Source: Bacteroidota bacterium
Lineage (GTDB): Bacteria; Bacteroidota; Bacteroidia; Cytophagales; Cyclobacteriaceae
Direction of reading: 5' to 3'
DNA: 64,000 bases
Assembly (NCBI GenBank): GCA_947470895.1
Contig: CANIVF010000007.1
Coordinates: 36,274-100,273, forward strand
Shown: one piece after another, positions 508 through 10,467 of the stretch
How the letters are laid out: every line of letters begins with the position of its first letter
How positions within the stretch are numbered: the first letter of the stretch is position 1
The notes under the pieces: generated by a model
Seen by the model: the letters and a program-made list of their open reading frames with translations, nothing else
The model's database searches: none
Told to the model about the DNA's origin: nothing
Program-made: the position numbers and the translations under genes

Positions 508-1842
508 TTAGTTCTTGAGGAGGTTCTTAATGGCCTCAGTAGTTTTTTCAAAGTTAAAATCGGTCAGTACGGTTTTAAAATTCTCCTTCACGGCATCGTT
601 CATCAAATTTCCAATGCTTCCCTCATGGGTATGGTCAACTTGGGTTGAATAGGTGAACTTATTTTGTTCAATATCCATCCCTATTTTTTTATACGCATCC
701 CGGAATGGCATGCCCGACAAAACTAATTTGTTGACTTCCTCTACACTAAACAAGTATTTATATTTTTCATCGCTCAGGATATTCTCTTTTACCTGAATGG
801 CTGAGATCATCAGATGCGTCATACGTAGACAATCTTTCAAAGTGCCAATTGCTGGAAACAGTTTCTCCTTCAATAATTGTAAATCGCGATGGTAGCCGGA
901 CGGAAGATTGGCAGTGAGCAACGTAAGTTCATTGGGTAACGCTTGTAATTCACTACACTTCGCACGTATCAATTCAAATACATCAGGATTTTTTTTATGA
1001 GGCATGATGCTTGAACCCGTAGTCAATTCATCCGGAAAGGAAATGAAGCTGAAATTCTGGTTTAAGAATAGGGTGGCGTCCATGGCCAACTTGCCCAGTG
1101 ATGAGGCCACATTACTCATGGCTTGTGCCATAATACGTTCAGTTTTACCGCGGCCCATTTGTGCATACACCACATTGTAATTCAAATCAGCAAATCCAAG
1201 TAACCTTGTGGTCAAGGTTCGGTTAAGTGGGAACGATGAACCATAACCGGCTGCGGATCCCAACGGGTTTTTATTTATAATCCGGTAAGCTGACTGTAAC
1301 GTAATGGTATCATCCATCAAACTTTCCGCATAGGCACCAAACCATAATCCAAACGAAGAAGGCATGGCTAATTGCAAGTGTGTGTAACCGGGCAAAAGTT
1401 TGTCTTTGTGTTCTTCGCTTTTGAAAATCAGTAATTCAAAGAGCGATTTTATTTGATAGACTAAATCTTCAATTTCATTTCTAAGATAAAGTTTTATATC
1501 CACCAGGACCTGATCGTTGCGCGATCGGCCACTGTGTATTTTCTTTCCCACATCTCCTAACTTCCTGGTGAGTAGTAGTTCTACTTGCGAGTGAATGTCT
1601 TCAACGCCATCCTCGATTTTAAAATCGCCAGAAATGATTTGATTATAAATCTTTTTTAGCTCGAGGCTCAGCAAGGCAAGTTCTTCTTTCGTGAGCAAGG
1701 CAATGGACTCCAGCATGGTAATGTGGGCCAGAGAACCGAGTACATCAAACGGAGCTAAATGCAAATCCAATACATTATCTTGCCCGGTAGTGAAGTCGGT
1801 TACTTCTTTAAGTGATTCCTTGTCTTTTGTCCAGAGTTTCAT
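508..1842 (-). CDS. argH: argininosuccinate lyase
   Basis: 444 aa; GSSIMPHKKNPDVFELIRAK signature, HSGRSRNDQV. Confidence 0.96.
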   Translation of the reverse strand: MKLWTKDKESLKEVTDFTTGQDNVLDLHLAPFDVLGSLAHITMLESIALLTKEELALLSLELKKIYNQIISGDFKIEDGVEDIHSQVELLLTRKLGDVGKKIHSGRSRNDQVLVDIKLYLRNEIEDLVYQIKSLFELLIFKSEEHKDKLLPGYTHLQLAMPSSFGLWFGAYAESLMDDTITLQSAYRIINKNPLGSAAGYGSSFPLNRTLTTRLLGFADLNYNVVYAQMGRGKTERIMAQAMSNVASSLGKLAMDATLFLNQNFSFISFPDELTTGSSIMPHKKNPDVFELIRAKCSELQALPNELTLLTANLPSGYHRDLQLLKEKLFPAIGTLKDCLRMTHLMISAIQVKENILSDEKYKYLFSVEEVNKLVLSGMPFRDAYKKIGMDIEQNKFTYSTQVDHTHEGSIGNLMNDAVKENFKTVLTDFNFEKTTEAIKNLLKN

Positions 1843-1887
1843 ATTTGATTTCCGGTTACAAGTTACCTGATGCCGGTCAGTTTTGTC

Positions 1888-2463
1888 TTATAAAATATTG
1901 TGAAGTTTCAGGTATTGCAGCAGTATGATCGTTTTCCCGTCTTTGATTTCACCTGTTTCTATCATCTGCCCTGCTTTTTCAAAAGGCAACTCAAGTACTT
2001 CGATGTCTTCGTTTTCACCAACGCCTCCACCTACCGAGGTTTTCATTTCTCGGGAATATTCGGCAATGAAAAAATATAATATCTCCGTTACCGATCCGGG
2101 CGACATATACGCCTGAAAGATCTTCTTTACTTCGCGGACGGTAAATCCTGTTTCTTCTTCCGTTTCTCTGCGTATGCAGTCTTCCGCGTTATCAAAATCA
2201 AGAAGTCCTGCACAGGCCTCTATGAGCATGCCTTCAGCGTTTCCATTGATATAAGTGGATAATCGAAACTGCCTGGTGAGAATGACGGTTTTATTTTCTT
2301 TATTATAAAGCAGAATTGTGGCTCCATTGCCACGATCATACGACTCTCTATTTTGTTGAGTCCAGTTTCCATTCTTTAACAAAAGATCAAACGTTATTTT
2401 TTTTAACGTGTACCAATTGTAAGAAAGGACTTCTGTTTTTAAAATGCGTACATGATCGCTCAT
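1888..2463 (-). CDS. nudK: NUDIX hydrolase, GDP-mannose pyrophosphatase-like (NudK type)
   Basis: Nudix box [22 protein letters not shown]; overlaps the argE stop by 4 bp. Confidence 0.8.
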
Positions 2464-3521
2464 TGTATTATTCTTTCGAGAAGTGAAATGTAAGAATCAA
2501 TTCCTTCTTCTATTTCGTGAACAAAGATAAATTCATCGGCACTGTGCGAACGAGCAGAATCTCCCGGGCCCATCTTGATAGAAGCGGTTGGGATCAATGC
2601 CTGATCGGACGTAGTTGGAGAACCATAAAGATTTTTACCTAGCGATTTTCCGGCTACGACAAGAGGATGATTATCCGGCACACCTGACGATCTCAATCGC
2701 AGAGATCGTGGTATCACTTCGCACGAAACGTTTTTATTAATGATATCGAGTACTTCTTCGAGTGTGTATGCATCCGTTACACGCACATCTACCGTAAATT
2801 TACATTCAGGCGGAACTTGATTATGGGCTTGTCCTGCCTGAATTACCGTTACAGACATTTTTATACTGCCTAACGAGTCAGATATTTTTGAAAACTGATA
2901 GGTGCGAAACCATTCAATGTCTTGCAACGCCTTGTAAATGGCATTCACACCTTCTTCTCGCGCAGCATGACCAGCTTTACCTTTAGCAATACAATCCAGT
3001 ACAAATAAACCTTTTTCGGCAACAGCTATATCCGTTAGGGTTGGCTCACCCACAATCGCAAAATCAATTTTTGGAAGATCATTCCAAATGAGTTCAATAC
3101 CATTCGTTCCAGAAATTTCTTCTTCTGCGGTGGCAGCGATCACTAAATTATATTTCAGATTCTGTACTTGATAGAAGTAGAAGAATGTCATGATCAATGA
3201 CACTAATGGTCCACCAGCATCGTTGCTTCCTAGTCCATAAAGTTTTCCATCTTCAATATCTCCAGAGAATGGATTGCGCGTGTATCCAGGATTTGGTTTT
3301 ACCGTGTCGTGATGGGAGTTAAGTAGGATGGTTGGTTTGGCAGGATCAAAGAATTTGTTTTTTGCCCACACATTGTTTCCTTTTCGATTTGCCTCCATAC
3401 CATGATACTTGAAAAAACTCATGAGCAAGTTGGCAGTCTTTTCTTCTTCCTTGCTAAAAGAAGGAATAGAAATCAATTGCTGTAACAAGCCTGAAGCGAT
3501 ATGGGGCAAGTGCTCCTTCAT
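2460..3521 (-). CDS. argE: M20 family N-acyl-ornithine deacylase (acetyl/succinyl-ornithine)
   Basis: M20 motifs [29 protein letters not shown], within arg operon. Confidence 0.88.
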
Positions 3522-4309
3522 GATTGTGTGATCAGTGTGCCTTTGGTATCGTAGCCCATGTTTGCCAACAGGTTGGTGTGCTCGCCAATTAATACTTCTT
3601 TCACTCCTGATTGAATGGCACTGAATGCATTTTCAAGTTTCGGTAAAATGCCATCATGAAAAGAACCCTTCGCCAATAACTCCTTATATAACGAATGATT
3701 AAGATTACGAATAACAGAGTCTTCTTTATTCACATCGGTAAGCACGCCTTGTTTTTCAAAACAGAAAATCAAACGCACATCAAAGTGCTTACTTAGGGAA
3801 ATCGCTAGCACCGATGCAATCGTATCAGCATTGGTATTTAACATGACTCCGTTTGCATGAGTTAGCGGAGCGAAAATAGGAATGACATTTTGTTTCAATA
3901 AAAAATACAACAACGTGCTGTTCACACTATCCGGGGTAATGTCCCCTACCAAACCATAATCTACTTCTCCTACAGGACGCTTCACTGCTTTGATCAGGTT
4001 ACCATCGGCACCCGTAACGCCCATGGCGTTGCAATGATCCGCTTGAAGGGCAGCCACGATTTGCTTATTCACCAAACCACCATAGACCATCGTGACAAGA
4101 TCAAGTGTTTGAGCATCGGTGATTCTTCTTCCTTTGGCATAATGGGATTCAATGCCAAGCTGTTCTCCTAGCTTGGTTGCAATCTTACCACCACCATGAA
4201 TCAATATCTTGGGTGCCTGAATGGTTGCAAAGTCTTTTAAGAAACTCTTTAACGATTTTTCTTCGTCCAATACATTGCCACCGATTTTTATGATGTATAA
4301 TTTGTTCAT
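3518..4309 (-). CDS. argB: N-acyl-glutamate kinase
   Basis: YIIKIGGNVLDEE, ILIHGGGK; start moved to ATG at 4309 (MNKLYIIKIGG) rather than the ORF-track start at 4342. Confidence 0.93.
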   Translation of the reverse strand: MNKLYIIKIGGNVLDEEKSLKSFLKDFATIQAPKILIHGGGKIATKLGEQLGIESHYAKGRRITDAQTLDLVTMVYGGLVNKQIVAALQADHCNAMGVTGADGNLIKAVKRPVGEVDYGLVGDITPDSVNSTLLYFLLKQNVIPIFAPLTHANGVMLNTNADTIASVLAISLSKHFDVRLIFCFEKQGVLTDVNKEDSVIRNLNHSLYKELLAKGSFHDGILPKLENAFSAIQSGVKEVLIGEHTNLLANMGYDTKGTLITQS

Positions 4310-4366
4310 ATAAAATTTAAATTGACAAAGTACAATTGGCAATAAAATTTACCTACTGCATTTTGC

Positions 4367-5326
4367 CTATTGCTTACTGGATTTAAGTAGTTCTGCCAAT
4401 ACAGCCTGTGCTGCCCACACCCGGTTGCCCGCCTGTTGCGTTACTATGCTGCTTGTGCCATCTAATATTTCATCGCTAAGTTCTACATTTCTTCTTACTG
4501 GCAGGCAATGCATCACTTTTGCGTTGTTTGTCGTGGCAAGTTTTTCGTTGGTCAGCATCCACTCAGGATCATTGCAATAAATTTTCCCGTAGTCGGTGTA
4601 GGTGCTCCAGTTTTTTATGTACACGAAATCAGCATCTTTTAAGGCTGCGTCCTGATCGTGTGTAATCGTTGCGCCTTTTGTAAATTTACTATCCAACTCG
4701 TAATCTTCAGGATGAGTGATGACGAAGTCGGCCCCACCCCAGGCATTAAGCCATTGGGAAAAACTATTGGCAACACATTGCGGCAATGCTTTTACGTGTG
4801 GTGCCCAGGTTAGTACAATTTTTGGTTTTCTTTTTTCTTTGAAGGCTTCCTTTATCGTAATGATATCAGTAAGACTTTGCAAAGGATGCAAGGTTGCGCT
4901 CTCCAAACTTAATAAAGGAACGCCAGCGTATTTGATAAATTGATTGATGTATAACTCACTATAATCGTCCTCTTTATTTTTCAAAGAAGGGAAGGTGCGA
5001 ACCCCAAGAATATCGAAATACTTTCCGAGTACAGGTGCAGCTTCTTTCACGTGCTCTACAGTAGTGCCGCTCATGATGGCCTCATCTTCAAATTCGAGTG
5101 TCCAACCATCTTGCCCAACGTTGAATACGATGGCATCCATGCCTAGATTCTTAGCAGCTATTTGTGTGCTGATGCGTGTGCGCATGCTTGGATTGAGAAA
5201 GAGCATCCCCAATCTTTTGTTATGACCTAGCGCAGCGTCTTTAAATGGATTGTCTTTGTATGCCAATGCGTTCTCAACCAGTTGTGGCAAATTGGATACT
5301 TCGTTTACAGAAAGAAAATGCTTCAT
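4367..5326 (-). CDS. argF': N-acyl-ornithine carbamoyltransferase (ArgF'-type, probably N-succinyl)
   Basis: FLNPSMRTRISTQIAAKNLGM carbamoyl-phosphate motif, MHCLPVRRNVELSDE; resembles Bacteroides succinylornithine transcarbamylase. Confidence 0.9.
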   Translation of the reverse strand: MKHFLSVNEVSNLPQLVENALAYKDNPFKDAALGHNKRLGMLFLNPSMRTRISTQIAAKNLGMDAIVFNVGQDGWTLEFEDEAIMSGTTVEHVKEAAPVLGKYFDILGVRTFPSLKNKEDDYSELYINQFIKYAGVPLLSLESATLHPLQSLTDIITIKEAFKEKRKPKIVLTWAPHVKALPQCVANSFSQWLNAWGGADFVITHPEDYELDSKFTKGATITHDQDAALKDADFVYIKNWSTYTDYGKIYCNDPEWMLTNEKLATTNNAKVMHCLPVRRNVELSDEILDGTSSIVTQQAGNRVWAAQAVLAELLKSSKQ

Positions 5327-6459
5327 GATAACGCGGGCTTTTTTAGTTCTACAGAAAGGGCCTCCAAAAGAATATCGGCTTCGGGCCTGGTTAAAGCTAA
5401 TGAAGGAAGAAGTCGCACGGTGTTCGGTTTGGCTTCACCGGTAAATATATGGTGTTTGAATAATAAATCTTTTCTTAAGTTAGCCAAGGAATCGGGCAAG
5501 TCAAATCCGATCATCAAGCCTCTGCCGCGCACTTCCTGTATGGAAGCAAACGAACAGAGTTGCTCCATCCAGTAATTTCCTAATATGACAGCATTGGTCA
5601 TCAGGTCTTCTTCTTCAATTACCTCCAGCACTGACAAGGTGGCTGCGCATGCTAAGTAGTTTCCACCAAACGTAGTCCCTAACATACCACTCCATGGTTT
5701 GATATCAGGATGAATCAATAGACCACCAACAGGAAATCCATTACCCATTCCTTTAGCGATGGTAATCAAATCAGCTTCAATGCCTGCATACTGATGAGCA
5801 AAGAATTTTCCAGAACGACCGTATCCGGATTGAACTTCATCAAGAATGAGTAATGCTCCAACTTTTTTACACTGGACAGAAAGAAATCTCAAAAAAGAAT
5901 CATCTGGCAATTGAATTCCACCAACACCTTGTATGCCTTCGATGATGACAGCGGCAATGTCTTTATTGATGGCTTCCGCCAATGCTTTTTCATCATTCAA
6001 AGGAAGAAAGATAATGTCATGGCCTGCATTAAAGGGAGCAACAATCTTTGGATTGTCTGTTGCGGCTACAGCGCCAGAAGTTCTTCCGTGAAACGCTTTC
6101 TTAAAAGCGATCACCTTTTTTCTACCCGTAATGAATGATGCAAGTTTCAAAGCATTCTCGTTGGCTTCAGCACCAGAATTGCAAAGAAAAAATTGATGGT
6201 TAGGGTATCCTGAAAGCTCTCCCAGTTTTTCAGCTAGCTTTTCCTGCATCGAGTTTTTTACACTGTTCGAATAGAAACTGATTTTATCCAACTGACTTTT
6301 CAGTGCTTCTACAAAATGTGGATGATTGTGACCAATAGAAATTACGGCATGACCTCCATATAAGTCTAAATATTTTTTTCCTTCACTATCCCAAAGCCAG
6401 GAGCCAGTAGCTTTTACTGGTTCGATGGGGAACAGTGGATAAACATCAAATAACTTCAT
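5323..6459 (-). CDS. argD: acyl-ornithine aminotransferase
   Basis: Class III PLP aminotransferase; LILDEVQSGYGRSGKFFAHQ, ITIAKGMGNGFPVGG. Confidence 0.93.
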   Translation of the reverse strand: MKLFDVYPLFPIEPVKATGSWLWDSEGKKYLDLYGGHAVISIGHNHPHFVEALKSQLDKISFYSNSVKNSMQEKLAEKLGELSGYPNHQFFLCNSGAEANENALKLASFITGRKKVIAFKKAFHGRTSGAVAATDNPKIVAPFNAGHDIIFLPLNDEKALAEAINKDIAAVIIEGIQGVGGIQLPDDSFLRFLSVQCKKVGALLILDEVQSGYGRSGKFFAHQYAGIEADLITIAKGMGNGFPVGGLLIHPDIKPWSGMLGTTFGGNYLACAATLSVLEVIEEEDLMTNAVILGNYWMEQLCSFASIQEVRGRGLMIGFDLPDSLANLRKDLLFKHHIFTGEAKPNTVRLLPSLALTRPEADILLEALSVELKKPALS

Positions 6460-6522
6460 CGTACATATTCAAAAGTGAAAATTGAATTAATTGCCTACTG
6501 CTGATTGCCTACTCCCTGCTTT

Positions 6523-7500
6523 TTAAAAAACGGTGCTCTTCAGCCTCAAACCCTCTCTCTCATCAAAACCAAACATCAAGTTCATGTTCTGTACGGCTTG
6601 TCCACTGGCACCTTTCAAAAGATTATCAGTGATCGAATGAATCGCTAGTTTGTTTCCTACTTTCTCCAAATGGATCAAGCACTTGTTGGTATTCACCACT
6701 TGTTTTAAGTCGATCATCTCATCGATCACGTGAGTGAACGGATGGCTTGCATAATATTCTTTATAGAGTTCGTTCGCTTCTTCAACACTCAGCGAGCATT
6801 CCAATACAGAAGTAACAAAGATACCACGCGTGAAATCTCCGCGCCAAGGCACAAAGTTGACTGACCCTGAAAAATTGGCTTGAAGGCTTTTGAGTGTTTG
6901 ATTGATCTCACCCAAATGCTGATGGGTTAATGTTTTGTAAGCAGAAACATTATTTGCTCGCCATGTAAAGTGTGTCGTGTCTTGTAGTTTTTGCCCGGCA
7001 CCAGTTGATCCTGTGATTCCTGTAGTATGTACTTCTTTGAGTAAGCCTGCTTTCGCTAAGGGTAGTAATCCCAGTTGAATGGTGGTAGCAAAGCAACCTG
7101 GGTTGGCAATACTTTGTGCTGACTTAATTTTCTCGCGTTGATATTCAGGAAGCCCATAAACAAACTCACGATAGCCTGCAGTGTCACCTAATCTGAAATC
7201 ATTTCCAAGATCGATCATGCGGGTTGATGAAGTAAAATTATTTTCGCTCAATAGTTTTTTACTTTCTCCGTGACTTAAGCAAAGAAAAAGAACATCTACT
7301 GGTTGATTAAAATCGGAAGTATAAATTAAATCGGTTTCACTAATTAAATCTGCATGAGTTGCAGTTACGGGTTTGCCCGCCTGACTTCTACTTTGCACAA
7401 AAGCAACTTTAACATGAGGATGAAGGAGAAGAAGACGCAACGTTTCTCCTCCGGTATATCCTGCTCCACCGATAATGCCTGCATTTATTTGTTTTGCCAT
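6523..7500 (-). CDS. argC: N-acyl-gamma-glutamyl-phosphate reductase
   Basis: GIIGGAGYTGGETLRLL, NPGCFATTIQLGLLPL. Confidence 0.95.
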   Translation of the reverse strand: MAKQINAGIIGGAGYTGGETLRLLLLHPHVKVAFVQSRSQAGKPVTATHADLISETDLIYTSDFNQPVDVLFLCLSHGESKKLLSENNFTSSTRMIDLGNDFRLGDTAGYREFVYGLPEYQREKIKSAQSIANPGCFATTIQLGLLPLAKAGLLKEVHTTGITGSTGAGQKLQDTTHFTWRANNVSAYKTLTHQHLGEINQTLKSLQANFSGSVNFVPWRGDFTRGIFVTSVLECSLSVEEANELYKEYYASHPFTHVIDEMIDLKQVVNTNKCLIHLEKVGNKLAIHSITDNLLKGASGQAVQNMNLMFGFDEREGLRLKSTVF

Positions 7501-7572
7501 ATTTTATTAAGCTAAAAGCTAAAAGCATAAAGCTCAAAGCTTTTGTCATGACTTAAATTAGCTTTAAGCTTT

Positions 7573-8775
7573 CTACTTTTGGCTTTCCGATTCATTTTTC
7601 ACTTGATGATATATCGCCACCTGATTTCCGAAGATTTTGGTAAAACCTTTCACATCATCGGCCGTCCAGCCTAAATTCATCTCACCGTACTTGCCAAATT
7701 TGGCCGACATTAAATCGTATTTGCTTTCTATGCCATTAATCTGGAATCGGTAAGGATGTAGCGTAAGGGAAACTTCACCGCTTACATTTTGTTGTGAACT
7801 GGTGAGGAATGCTTCCATGTCGCGCATGATGGGATCGAGGTATTGGCCTTCGTGCAACCAGTTGCCATAGAATTGAGCTAACTGATCTTTCCAACTCATT
7901 TGCCATTTAGTGAGCACGTGTTTCTCTAAGGCGTGATGTGCTTTAATGATCAAGACCGGAGCAGCTGCTTCAAAGCCAACACGGCCTTTTATGCCAATGA
8001 TCGTATCACCCACATGAATGTCACGACCAATCCCATAAGGACCAGCGATAGTTTGCAGATAATGAATGGCATCGACCGAATGCGAAAATGATTTTCCATT
8101 CACCGTCTTCAGTTCACCTTTTTCAAATCCAAGCTTCACTTCTTCGCTACCTTGTTTTGTCATTGGTGTTGGCCAAGCTTCTTCAGGTAATTGACCTAAT
8201 GAATTCAGCGTTTCTCTTCCTCCCACGGAAGTCCCCCAGATGCCTTTATTAATAGAGTACTTGGCTTTCTCAAAATTGAAAACAACACCTTTTGATTTCA
8301 GGTATTCAATTTCTGCTTCGCGACTTAGTTTCAGATCGCGAATGGGCGTAATGATTTCTGTGCCCGGAGCAAGAATCTGAATGATCATGTCGAAGCGCAC
8401 CTGGTCGTTGCCGGCAGCTGTGCTTCCGTGTGCTACGGCATCTGCTTTTATTTCTTTCGCATAGCGTGCTGCTGCCAATGCTTGCGACATGCGCTCGGCA
8501 CTCACACTCAATGGATAGGTTCCATTTTTCAACACATTACCAAATACGAGAAAGCGTATTACTTTTTCGTAATAGTTACGGGTTTCATCTACGGTGATAT
8601 GCGATGCAACACCTAAACTCAGTGCGCGCTTCTCTATATCCTTTACTTCTTCTGCATTAAAACCTCCGGTGTTCACGGTGATCGTGTGAACTTCGTAGCC
8701 CAGGTCTTTTGATAAATAAATGGCGCAGTAGGAAGTATCTAATCCTCCGCTAAATGCTAAAACAACTTTCTTCAT
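7573..8775 (-). CDS. argG: argininosuccinate synthase
   Basis: KKVVLAFSGGLDTSYCAIYL, AHGSTAAGNDQVRF. Confidence 0.96.
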   Translation of the reverse strand: MKKVVLAFSGGLDTSYCAIYLSKDLGYEVHTITVNTGGFNAEEVKDIEKRALSLGVASHITVDETRNYYEKVIRFLVFGNVLKNGTYPLSVSAERMSQALAAARYAKEIKADAVAHGSTAAGNDQVRFDMIIQILAPGTEIITPIRDLKLSREAEIEYLKSKGVVFNFEKAKYSINKGIWGTSVGGRETLNSLGQLPEEAWPTPMTKQGSEEVKLGFEKGELKTVNGKSFSHSVDAIHYLQTIAGPYGIGRDIHVGDTIIGIKGRVGFEAAAPVLIIKAHHALEKHVLTKWQMSWKDQLAQFYGNWLHEGQYLDPIMRDMEAFLTSSQQNVSGEVSLTLHPYRFQINGIESKYDLMSAKFGKYGEMNLGWTADDVKGFTKIFGNQVAIYHQVKNESESQK

Positions 8776-8788
8776 CGATAATTATGGA

Positions 8789-9535
8789 TTACCAGAAAAA
8801 TAAAAAACTTAACATCGAAGACTTCTTTCCTTCATCGCCCTCTTTTTTCTTCCATCCTTTCAACAGGACGAACTGTTTGAATTGCACCCAGCGCTCAAAC
8901 AACTTGAAGTTTCCGGCAAACTCGCGCTTGCGGTGGTGCTCCAGATCTCCTTCAGGAGTAACCACTGTTTTAGCAAGCTCGGCTTTTTTCCTGGCATCTT
9001 CTACCGGATCGAAAAGCATGGCGGTGCACATACAGTTCTTGCGCCCCTTGCTCATAAGTATTTCAAAGTTCACACAACTGCGGCAACCTTTCCAGAATTC
9101 CTCATCGGTAGTCAGCTCTGAATAGGTAACAGGTTCGTAGCCAAGTTCTGAATTGATTTTCATTACTGCTAAGCCGGTTGTTAATCCAAAAATTTTAGCA
9201 TTGGGATATTTCTTGCGCGACAGTTCAAACACCTTGCGTTTGATTTGAGTAGCGACTCCTGATTTCCGAAATCCAGGCGATACGATGAGGCCTGAGTTGG
9301 CCACATAGTTTTCAAGTTCCCAGGCTTCAATATAACAAAAGCCTACCCATGTATCATCCGGTGTAACGGCAATCACGGCTTTGCCTTCTTCTATTTTCAT
9401 TTTGATGTAATCAGGCGAGCGTTTGGCAATACCGGTGCCTCTGGCTTTCGCAGATTCTGCCATCTCGTTCGTGATGGTTTCAGCGTAATGAGCGTCTGCA
9501 GCCGTAGCTGCTCTGACAATTATATTTTGATTCAA
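8789..9535 (-). CDS. GNAT-family N-acyltransferase, putative first step of arginine biosynthesis (argA-like)
   Basis: GNAT fold residues (AVTPDDTWVGFCYIEAWELENYVANSGLIVSPGFRKSGVATQIKRKVFEL), first gene of the arg operon; start codon is TTG (9533-9535). Confidence 0.82.
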   Translation of the reverse strand: MNQNIIVRAATAADAHYAETITNEMAESAKARGTGIAKRSPDYIKMKIEEGKAVIAVTPDDTWVGFCYIEAWELENYVANSGLIVSPGFRKSGVATQIKRKVFELSRKKYPNAKIFGLTTGLAVMKINSELGYEPVTYSELTTDEEFWKGCRSCVNFEILMSKGRKNCMCTAMLFDPVEDARKKAELAKTVVTPEGDLEHHRKREFAGNFKLFERWVQFKQFVLLKGWKKKEGDEGKKSSMLSFLFFW

Positions 9536-9544
9536 TGTAATTCT

Positions 9545-9800
9545 GAGTTTAAATAAATGATCTGATAGAAATGCATTAAAAGCACTTCAGGCGTGACCTG
9601 CCTTGCAGATCCGCCATACGTATGTTAGTAAGAAAGGTATCAGATTCTGATTTGCCTTCGGAAGCTCTTGAACCCCGGTCGGGGTGAGAGTTCGTTGCAA
9701 ATGAGCGTTATTGCCGGGATGGCAAAGCTGATTGTGGAGTCAGCGGGCTCAAAAGGGGCAAGTGTTGTTTTCAAGTTCAGTTGTTGCGTTTAAATCGTCA
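9545..9800 (-). ncRNA. candidate structured 5' leader RNA of the arginine operon
   Basis: Consecutive inverted repeats at 9590-9615, 9639-9651, 9672-9685, 9711-9725 and 9727-9744 directly upstream of the first arg gene; non-coding and less AT-rich than the 9800-9900 promoter block. Confidence 0.45.
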
Positions 9801-9903
9801 GATAAAATGCATCATAATTTTTTACAAAAATAATGTATAAAAAAATGAATATTTCAATTGTTAGTTCATTTTTATAAAAGTTTTTTGAAGGAGCAACTCA
9901 CGG

Positions 9904-10467
9904 ATGGAAAAATTTCTTGATCAATACGGATACATCGCACTGCTGATTGGCACCTTCATGGAAGGAGAGACTGCCATACTCATGGCTTCATCATTGATCT
10001 ACAAAGGTCTTTTTAATTTCCCGTTCACCGTGCTGGCTGCCTTCTCCGGTTCGTTTATCAGTGACTGGATTTATTACCTCATCGGCCGACTGAATGGAAA
10101 ATATTTTCTTGCCAAGCGACCAAAGCTCAGTGAGAAAGTAAAGCCTGTCACGAATTTCTTTCATCAGAATAAATTTCAAATCCTGTTCAGCTACCGGTTT
10201 CTATATGGCTTCAGGATCATCATTCCATTGGTGATTGGTATGAGCGGACTTCGACCGCTACAATACCTTTTCTATAGCATTGTAACCGGCCTCTTGTGGG
10301 CAACCACCGTAAGCACGACTGGCTATTGGATCGGCCGGTTACTTGATTTGCGGGTTCAATCTTTTGAAGAGAACATACTCTTTATCGTACTTGGTTTTGG
10401 CACGCTGGGGATGTTGATCGGCTACACTATTAAAAACATAGCCATGCTGAAGATTCATGTGGAGTGA
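9904..10467 (+). CDS. DedA family membrane protein
   Basis: EKFLDQYGYIALLIGTFMEGET, FSYRFLYGFRIIIPLVIGMS. Confidence 0.9.
   Translation: MEKFLDQYGYIALLIGTFMEGETAILMASSLIYKGLFNFPFTVLAAFSGSFISDWIYYLIGRLNGKYFLAKRPKLSEKVKPVTNFFHQNKFQILFSYRFLYGFRIIIPLVIGMSGLRPLQYLFYSIVTGLLWATTVSTTGYWIGRLLDLRVQSFEENILFIVLGFGTLGMLIGYTIKNIAMLKIHVE

Follow-up and report, generated by a model that had tools for sequence, protein, structure and literature searches.

What controls the arginine operon of this Cyclobacteriaceae genome (a draft of 4.92 Mb), and does the hairpin-rich DNA in front of the operon play a part in it? The window, i.e., the whole stretch of 64,000 nt analysed here, carries the operon on its minus strand (Table 1). 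Its argF′ gene specifies an N-acyl-ornithine carbamoyltransferase and its argE/dapE-like gene an ArgE/DapE-like deacylase, while argG (argininosuccinate synthase) directly follows the GNAT gene in 104 of the 105 loci from relatives with enough sequence. The start codon of the GNAT gene is often not AUG. A gene for a NudK-like NUDIX hydrolase (1888–2463, minus strand) lies inside the operon, before argH, and shares 4 bases with the deacylase gene upstream of it. The divergently oriented gene for a DedA-like membrane protein (9904–10467, plus strand) is an upstream neighbour in part of the genus only. A Chitinophagaceae-like GNAT gene is also present in L056 and L113, contigs labelled as Beijerinckiaceae and Oligoflexia MAGs, and L056 additionally carries a Chitinophaga-like Arg leader; these contigs are probably mis-binned.

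Table 1. Features of the arginine operon leader and its surroundings (window coordinates, except for the last row).
Feature	Position	Strand	Basis or remarks
Predicted −33 TTG element, Bacteroidota-type promoter	9855..9857	−	Read from sequence
Predicted −7 box TATTTTTG (TAnnTTTG)	9825..9832	−	Read from sequence
Leader peptide ORF, TTG start, 44 codons, MKTTLAPFEPADSTISFAIPAITLICNELSPRPGFKSFRRQIRI-stop	9640..9774	−	Frame conservation, pN/pS
Hairpin GCTGA..TCAGC, in ORF	9727..9744	−	Kept in 8 close relatives
Hairpin TTGCC..GGCAA, in ORF	9711..9725	−	Kept in 8 close relatives, hardly variable
Hairpin ACCCC..GGGGT, in ORF (codons S-P-R-P-G)	9672..9685	−	Conserved, changes one-sided only
Control region CGA AGG CAA ATC AGA ATC TGA (R R Q I R I stop)	9640..9660	−	
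Palindrome ATCAG..CTGAT over the I-R-I-stop codons; candidate antiterminator 5′ strand	9639..9651	−	
Hairpin P region, right after the stop codon	9616..9639	−	Weak in window, strong in many relatives
Hairpin A, long stem noted earlier; candidate terminator stem	9590..9615	−	Swap test
Hairpin B GAAGTGC..GCATTTC with U-rich tail	9568..9588	−	Folding, swap test
GNAT acetyltransferase, operon gene 1	8789..9535	−	NCBIfam PRK07757-like, below cut-off
Remaining operon: argG, argC, argD, argF′, argB, argE/dapE-like, NUDIX (NudK-like), argH	508..8775	−	
Chitinophagaceae-type hairpin, example (CUGAUAGGACGAGC..GCCCCUAUCAGUGAAAA)	L059:2395-2433		

The initial annotation had proposed the leader as a candidate cis-regulatory RNA, an attenuator or a new metabolite-sensing element, without a convincing ORF. 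The inverted repeats that it named are all present on the minus strand where it had placed them, and the leader does fold strongly (295 nt: −75.5 kcal/mol versus a mean of −54.7 kcal/mol; z −5.35; 0/200 dinucleotide shuffles). In the AT-rich DNA upstream, −33 and −7 elements can be predicted from the Bacteroidota promoter consensus; their spacing of ~22 nt is similar in relatives, which also keep a TTAATTTTGTAAAA-like −7 box, and transcription is predicted to start near 9819. Covariance models of the known Rfam riboswitch, leader and T-box families gave no match at the gathering threshold, neither in the window nor in 14 relatives. A cis-regulatory leader or attenuator is supported by these data and by those given below: the element is conserved, structured and covarying, and it separates the arg operon from a Bacteroidota-type promoter. 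The supposed lack of a convincing ORF did not hold. The leader contains a TTG-initiated ORF, which overlaps four of the five hairpins listed earlier, wholly or partly, and whose coding frame is conserved in the relatives from the genus. This peptide frame, with its synonymously variable Arg codons, is the most conserved element of the leader, and a new metabolite-sensing RNA is unsupported.

The ORF ends in S-F-R-R-Q-I-R-I-stop, and direct reading locates an I-R-I-stop end at the matching place in the genus relatives. The last four codons are I-R-I-TGA in 32 out of 32 leaders from the genus and family, compared with UGA in 14 of the 50 stop codons among the genes of the window. Over these 32 leaders, the final 12 bases read ATN-MGN-ATY-TGA, with a G at the first base (Val for Ile) as the single exception; the remaining changes in the tail are all synonymous, and all six Arg codons are represented. 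CGA and AGG together make up 61% of the Arg codons in the genus tails versus 22% in the genes of the window. Within-clade pN/pS ratios were 0.52, 0.46, 0.23 and 0.34 in the ORF frame and about 0.9–1.9 in the other frames; judged by these ratios, purifying selection is confined to the ORF frame. Clades of the genus with unrelated N-termini share the tail (...NRRPLRRIRI, ...AIRRIRRQIRI and ...GLRRIRI). When an Arg-tailed ORF is defined as one of at least 15 codons with at least three Arg among the last nine, it occurs in 31 of 31 genus and family leaders; by the same definition, five reverse strands and 4.6% of the dinucleotide-shuffled sequences have one.

The ORF starts with UUG (9772–9774 in the window; leaders L002–L030) in nearly all members of the genus, and this weak start codon may be part of the control. 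In one MAG (L004), the leader frame is broken at about codon 34, where a C/G run (CCCCGCCC-GGG) lacks a single base; because the tail is intact, the deletion is possibly an assembly error.

Beyond the genus, the strict RRQIRI-stop DNA pattern gave a single match in 295 genomes of the class, that in the window's own genome; with the pattern matching the source genome only, the wider relatives were collected via the GNAT protein. Among the 87 leaders so obtained from other Bacteroidota families, Chitinophaga, Sediminibacterium, Niabella and Terrimonas included, 57 have an Arg-tailed ORF as defined above (3.2% of shuffles) and 30 do not under this strict definition. The tails now read, e.g., SRRPRI, SRPRRRPVF, PRPRRGC, LVRR or RRRPRRPRA: they differ outside the genus but keep Arg, so that Arg codons, and not a fixed peptide, are what is retained. 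Three order-level relatives (L035, L039 and L042) have leader ORFs that are far richer in Arg (RRRRR, RRHLRLRRRA and RRRPRRPRA), at a variable distance from the gene. In all, these comparisons of sequences provide good support for the translation of an Arg-coded leader peptide, and since the Arg codons are invariant yet synonymously free, they suggest the ribosome as the sensor rather than an RNA aptamer.

Downstream of the stop codon, we assessed the helices with an alignment-free swap test, in which strands are exchanged between species; if a helix covaries, its cognate strands pair better than the exchanged ones. Covariation, the absence of which would have spoken against the initial annotation, was found and is strongest in hairpin A, with z −11 to −13 (−11.4 on 20 representatives) and arms that pair at −12.8 kcal/mol with their cognates but at about −5.9 kcal/mol when swapped (0/4000 permutations). 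In L011, L012 and L014, where automatic placement was wrong, hairpin A was set by hand; L026 and L030, which have no clear hairpin A, were left out. Hairpin P yielded z −6.1 (20 representatives; 0/4000) and hairpin B z −4.1. In the alignment of close relatives, double changes affect six pairs, three of them in hairpin A.

Transcription termination at the stem of hairpin A is partly supported. T accounts for a fraction of 0.49 of the 4 nt immediately past hairpin A, versus 0.25 of the leader preceding it. In the window, the U-tract is imperfect (CGCC-UGAAGUGCUUUU), with a U-run that starts eight bases beyond the stem, and a terminator scan detected only a weak 5-pair site at 9600–9588, where 0.4 sites are expected by chance. 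Such a U-tract would suit a different output of the same Arg-coded leader peptide, namely Rho-dependent termination, control of GNAT translation or mRNA decay. Several Chitinophagaceae leaders, too, are without an obvious terminator past their conserved hairpin (described below), and there is a precedent in Salmonella speF, where the Arg codons of orf34 act via Rho and RNase G (PMC6386406). We consider an output of this kind unlikely, albeit a serious contender, given that three covarying hairpins separate the stop codon from the gene, that U-richness rises past hairpin A and that the GNAT start, ~55 nt past hairpin A, is not obviously sequestered.

The I-R-I-stop RNA is a candidate for the 5′ strand of an antiterminator. 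In the swap test, pairing of the segment from stop−12 to stop+3 with hairpin A, on its 5′ arm, gave z −3.5 (30 leaders), and z −2.4 on the 20 representatives (51/4000), a value to be read in the light of the many segments tested; of the 15-nt segments between −135 and +21, only those at −15..+3 pair clearly better with this arm from their own species. The pairing is strong in L024, L027, L022 and L017 and weak in L002, L012 and L016; in L024 and L027, it involves CCGUAUUU or CCGCAUUU with AAAUGCGG and encloses hairpin P. Equilibrium folding with a ribosome at stop−8 or at stop+10 gave no consistent change in the pairing of hairpin A (Wilcoxon p 0.93), for which co-transcriptional folding may be the cause. 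The antiterminator is thus partly supported, and the exact terminator and antiterminator are provisional.

The proposal that we favour, with considerable confidence, is ribosome-mediated, arginine-specific attenuation of the arginine operon by this leader, with arginine likely sensed by ribosome stalling. The comparative support for this proposal consists of the conserved frame and Arg codons, the covariation in hairpins P, A and B and the lack of ArgR (see below), all of it drawn from genome sequences. The leader transcript would be ~290 nt long, and the ribosome would initiate at the TTG (9774) and make a peptide of 44 residues. With charged tRNA-Arg plentiful, it would pass the Arg codons, reach the UGA and cover the RNA around the stop codon, whereupon hairpin A could form, transcription would end and the arg operon would be off. 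With arginine scarce, the ribosome would stall at the CGA-AGG pair, ~20 nt before the stop codon, and the free I-R-I-stop RNA could engage the 5′ arm of hairpin A in a helix around hairpin P; transcription would then proceed into GNAT-argG-argC-argD-argF′-argB-argE-nudix-argH. The geometry is compatible with this scheme. The first Arg codon of the RR pair lies 21 nt upstream of the end of the stop codon, and a ribosome stalled there would have its leading edge near stop−8, just before the I-R-I-stop strand; this strand would thus be left free, whereas a ribosome at the stop codon would cover it.

Alternatively, the sensor of free arginine or ornithine might be the nascent peptide itself, within the exit tunnel, and the ribosome would then be arrested close to the stop codon or on it, in the manner of the fungal arginine attenuator peptide or SpeFL. 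The constancy of I-R-I-UGA in all 32 genus and family leaders, both Ile (bar the one Val) and the UGA included, could be understood in this way, but RNA pairing with hairpin A also accounts for the constraint on the Ile and stop codons, and the non-genus tails are wholly different save for their Arg codons, which fits codon sensing. Arrest by the peptide therefore appears improbable to us. Even less credence is due to an ordinary small protein acting in trans, with the hairpins incidental: purifying selection does act in a frame-specific manner across the whole ORF, but beyond the clades the N-terminal sequence and the length vary while the Arg tail alone is kept, the ORF always adjoins the arg operon, and the RNA 3′ of the stop codon covaries.

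As for the hairpins within the ORF, GCTGA..TCAGC shows one double change, in L008, and in two sequences one of its pairs is broken. We regard a metabolite-binding riboswitch as the least probable reading of all, for in spite of the strong folding and the conserved hairpins, several of which lie within the ORF, conservation tracks codons, the ORF hairpins scarcely recur beyond close relatives, RNA structures vary among families where Arg codons persist, and the Rfam models matched neither the window nor its relatives.

In Chitinophagaceae, we identified another hairpin. In 41 leaders of this type, a conserved hairpin, CUGAUAGG-ACGA-GCAA...UUGC-C-CCUAUCAG, comes after the Arg tail and has the stop codon within its 5′ strand. 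Pairing holds in 95.5% of the cells, as compared to 31–42% in slid controls, and both sides are changed in 39 cells versus 15.5 in shuffles; none of the four members tested has an Rfam match. This hairpin is a candidate new RNA motif. The RR codons lie 15–21 nt upstream of the end of the stop codon in these leaders, and the hairpin would presumably stay intact under a stalled ribosome and be opened by a terminating one.

Bacterial arginine operons are textbook targets of the repressor ArgR. Searches for ArgR (PF01316) found it in 0 of 18 relatives, 0 of 13 genomes from other families that carry such a leader and 0 of 118 genomes of the order; the same search was positive in nine of 14 control genomes, a Bacteroides among them. 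Arg-coded leader peptides could be a general replacement for ArgR in the Bacteroidota that lack it (Cytophagales, Chitinophagales and at least some Sphingobacteriales), with family-specific RNA switches that include the Chitinophagaceae stop-codon hairpin (CUGAUAGGACGAGC...GCCCCUAUCAG), which would melt only when a ribosome gets as far as the stop codon; we advance this generalisation tentatively, at slightly less than an even chance. If confirmed, the leader would account for the control of a near-complete arginine-pathway operon in ArgR-less lineages, with a sensing logic that is retained while the RNA hardware varies between families, and it provides a concrete regulatory element that can be tested, in a phylum about whose regulation little is known.

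In a survey of Actinobacteria, arginine operons were without a conserved RNA element (PMC1262725), and the literature links arginine regulation in other species to T-boxes. In the open-access literature, we found no prior report of a leader-peptide attenuator on a full bacterial arginine operon. The class of mechanism, the leader-peptide attenuator of trp and his operons, is known; as a target, the arginine operon is apparently undescribed as far as we found. The trp, his, leu, thr, pheA and ilv attenuators likewise consist of a short ORF with codons for the pathway's amino acid before its stop codon, then hairpins, and a biosynthetic operon downstream. The present leader differs from the trp/his type in being arginine-specific, in its occurrence in Bacteroidota, in its UUG start and imperfect U-tract, and in that no Shine-Dalgarno sequence is expected and no Rfam leader family matches. 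The fungal arginine attenuator peptide (arg-2/CPA1) is also a uORF product that controls an arginine biosynthetic gene; this system is eukaryotic, and its arrest, induced by free arginine, depends on the peptide sequence. In Salmonella speF, consecutive Arg codons in orf34/SpeFL are likewise used such that the rate of translation sets alternative RNA structures, but the target is ornithine decarboxylase, the output goes via Rho and RNase G, the peptide is unrelated and the physiological role is another (PMC6386406). Staphylococcus aureus rbfL similarly uses the rare Arg codons of a leader peptide to sense arginine limitation; it differs in that a biofilm regulator is repressed, at the level of translation, and in that it overlaps the downstream ribosome-binding site (PMC13009471). 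Within the same phylum, the elements named in the part of the Flavobacterium psychrophilum report considered here are such as pheA and hisG rather than arginine ones, but there, too, leader peptides precede amino-acid operons and attenuation is suspected (PMC9723704).
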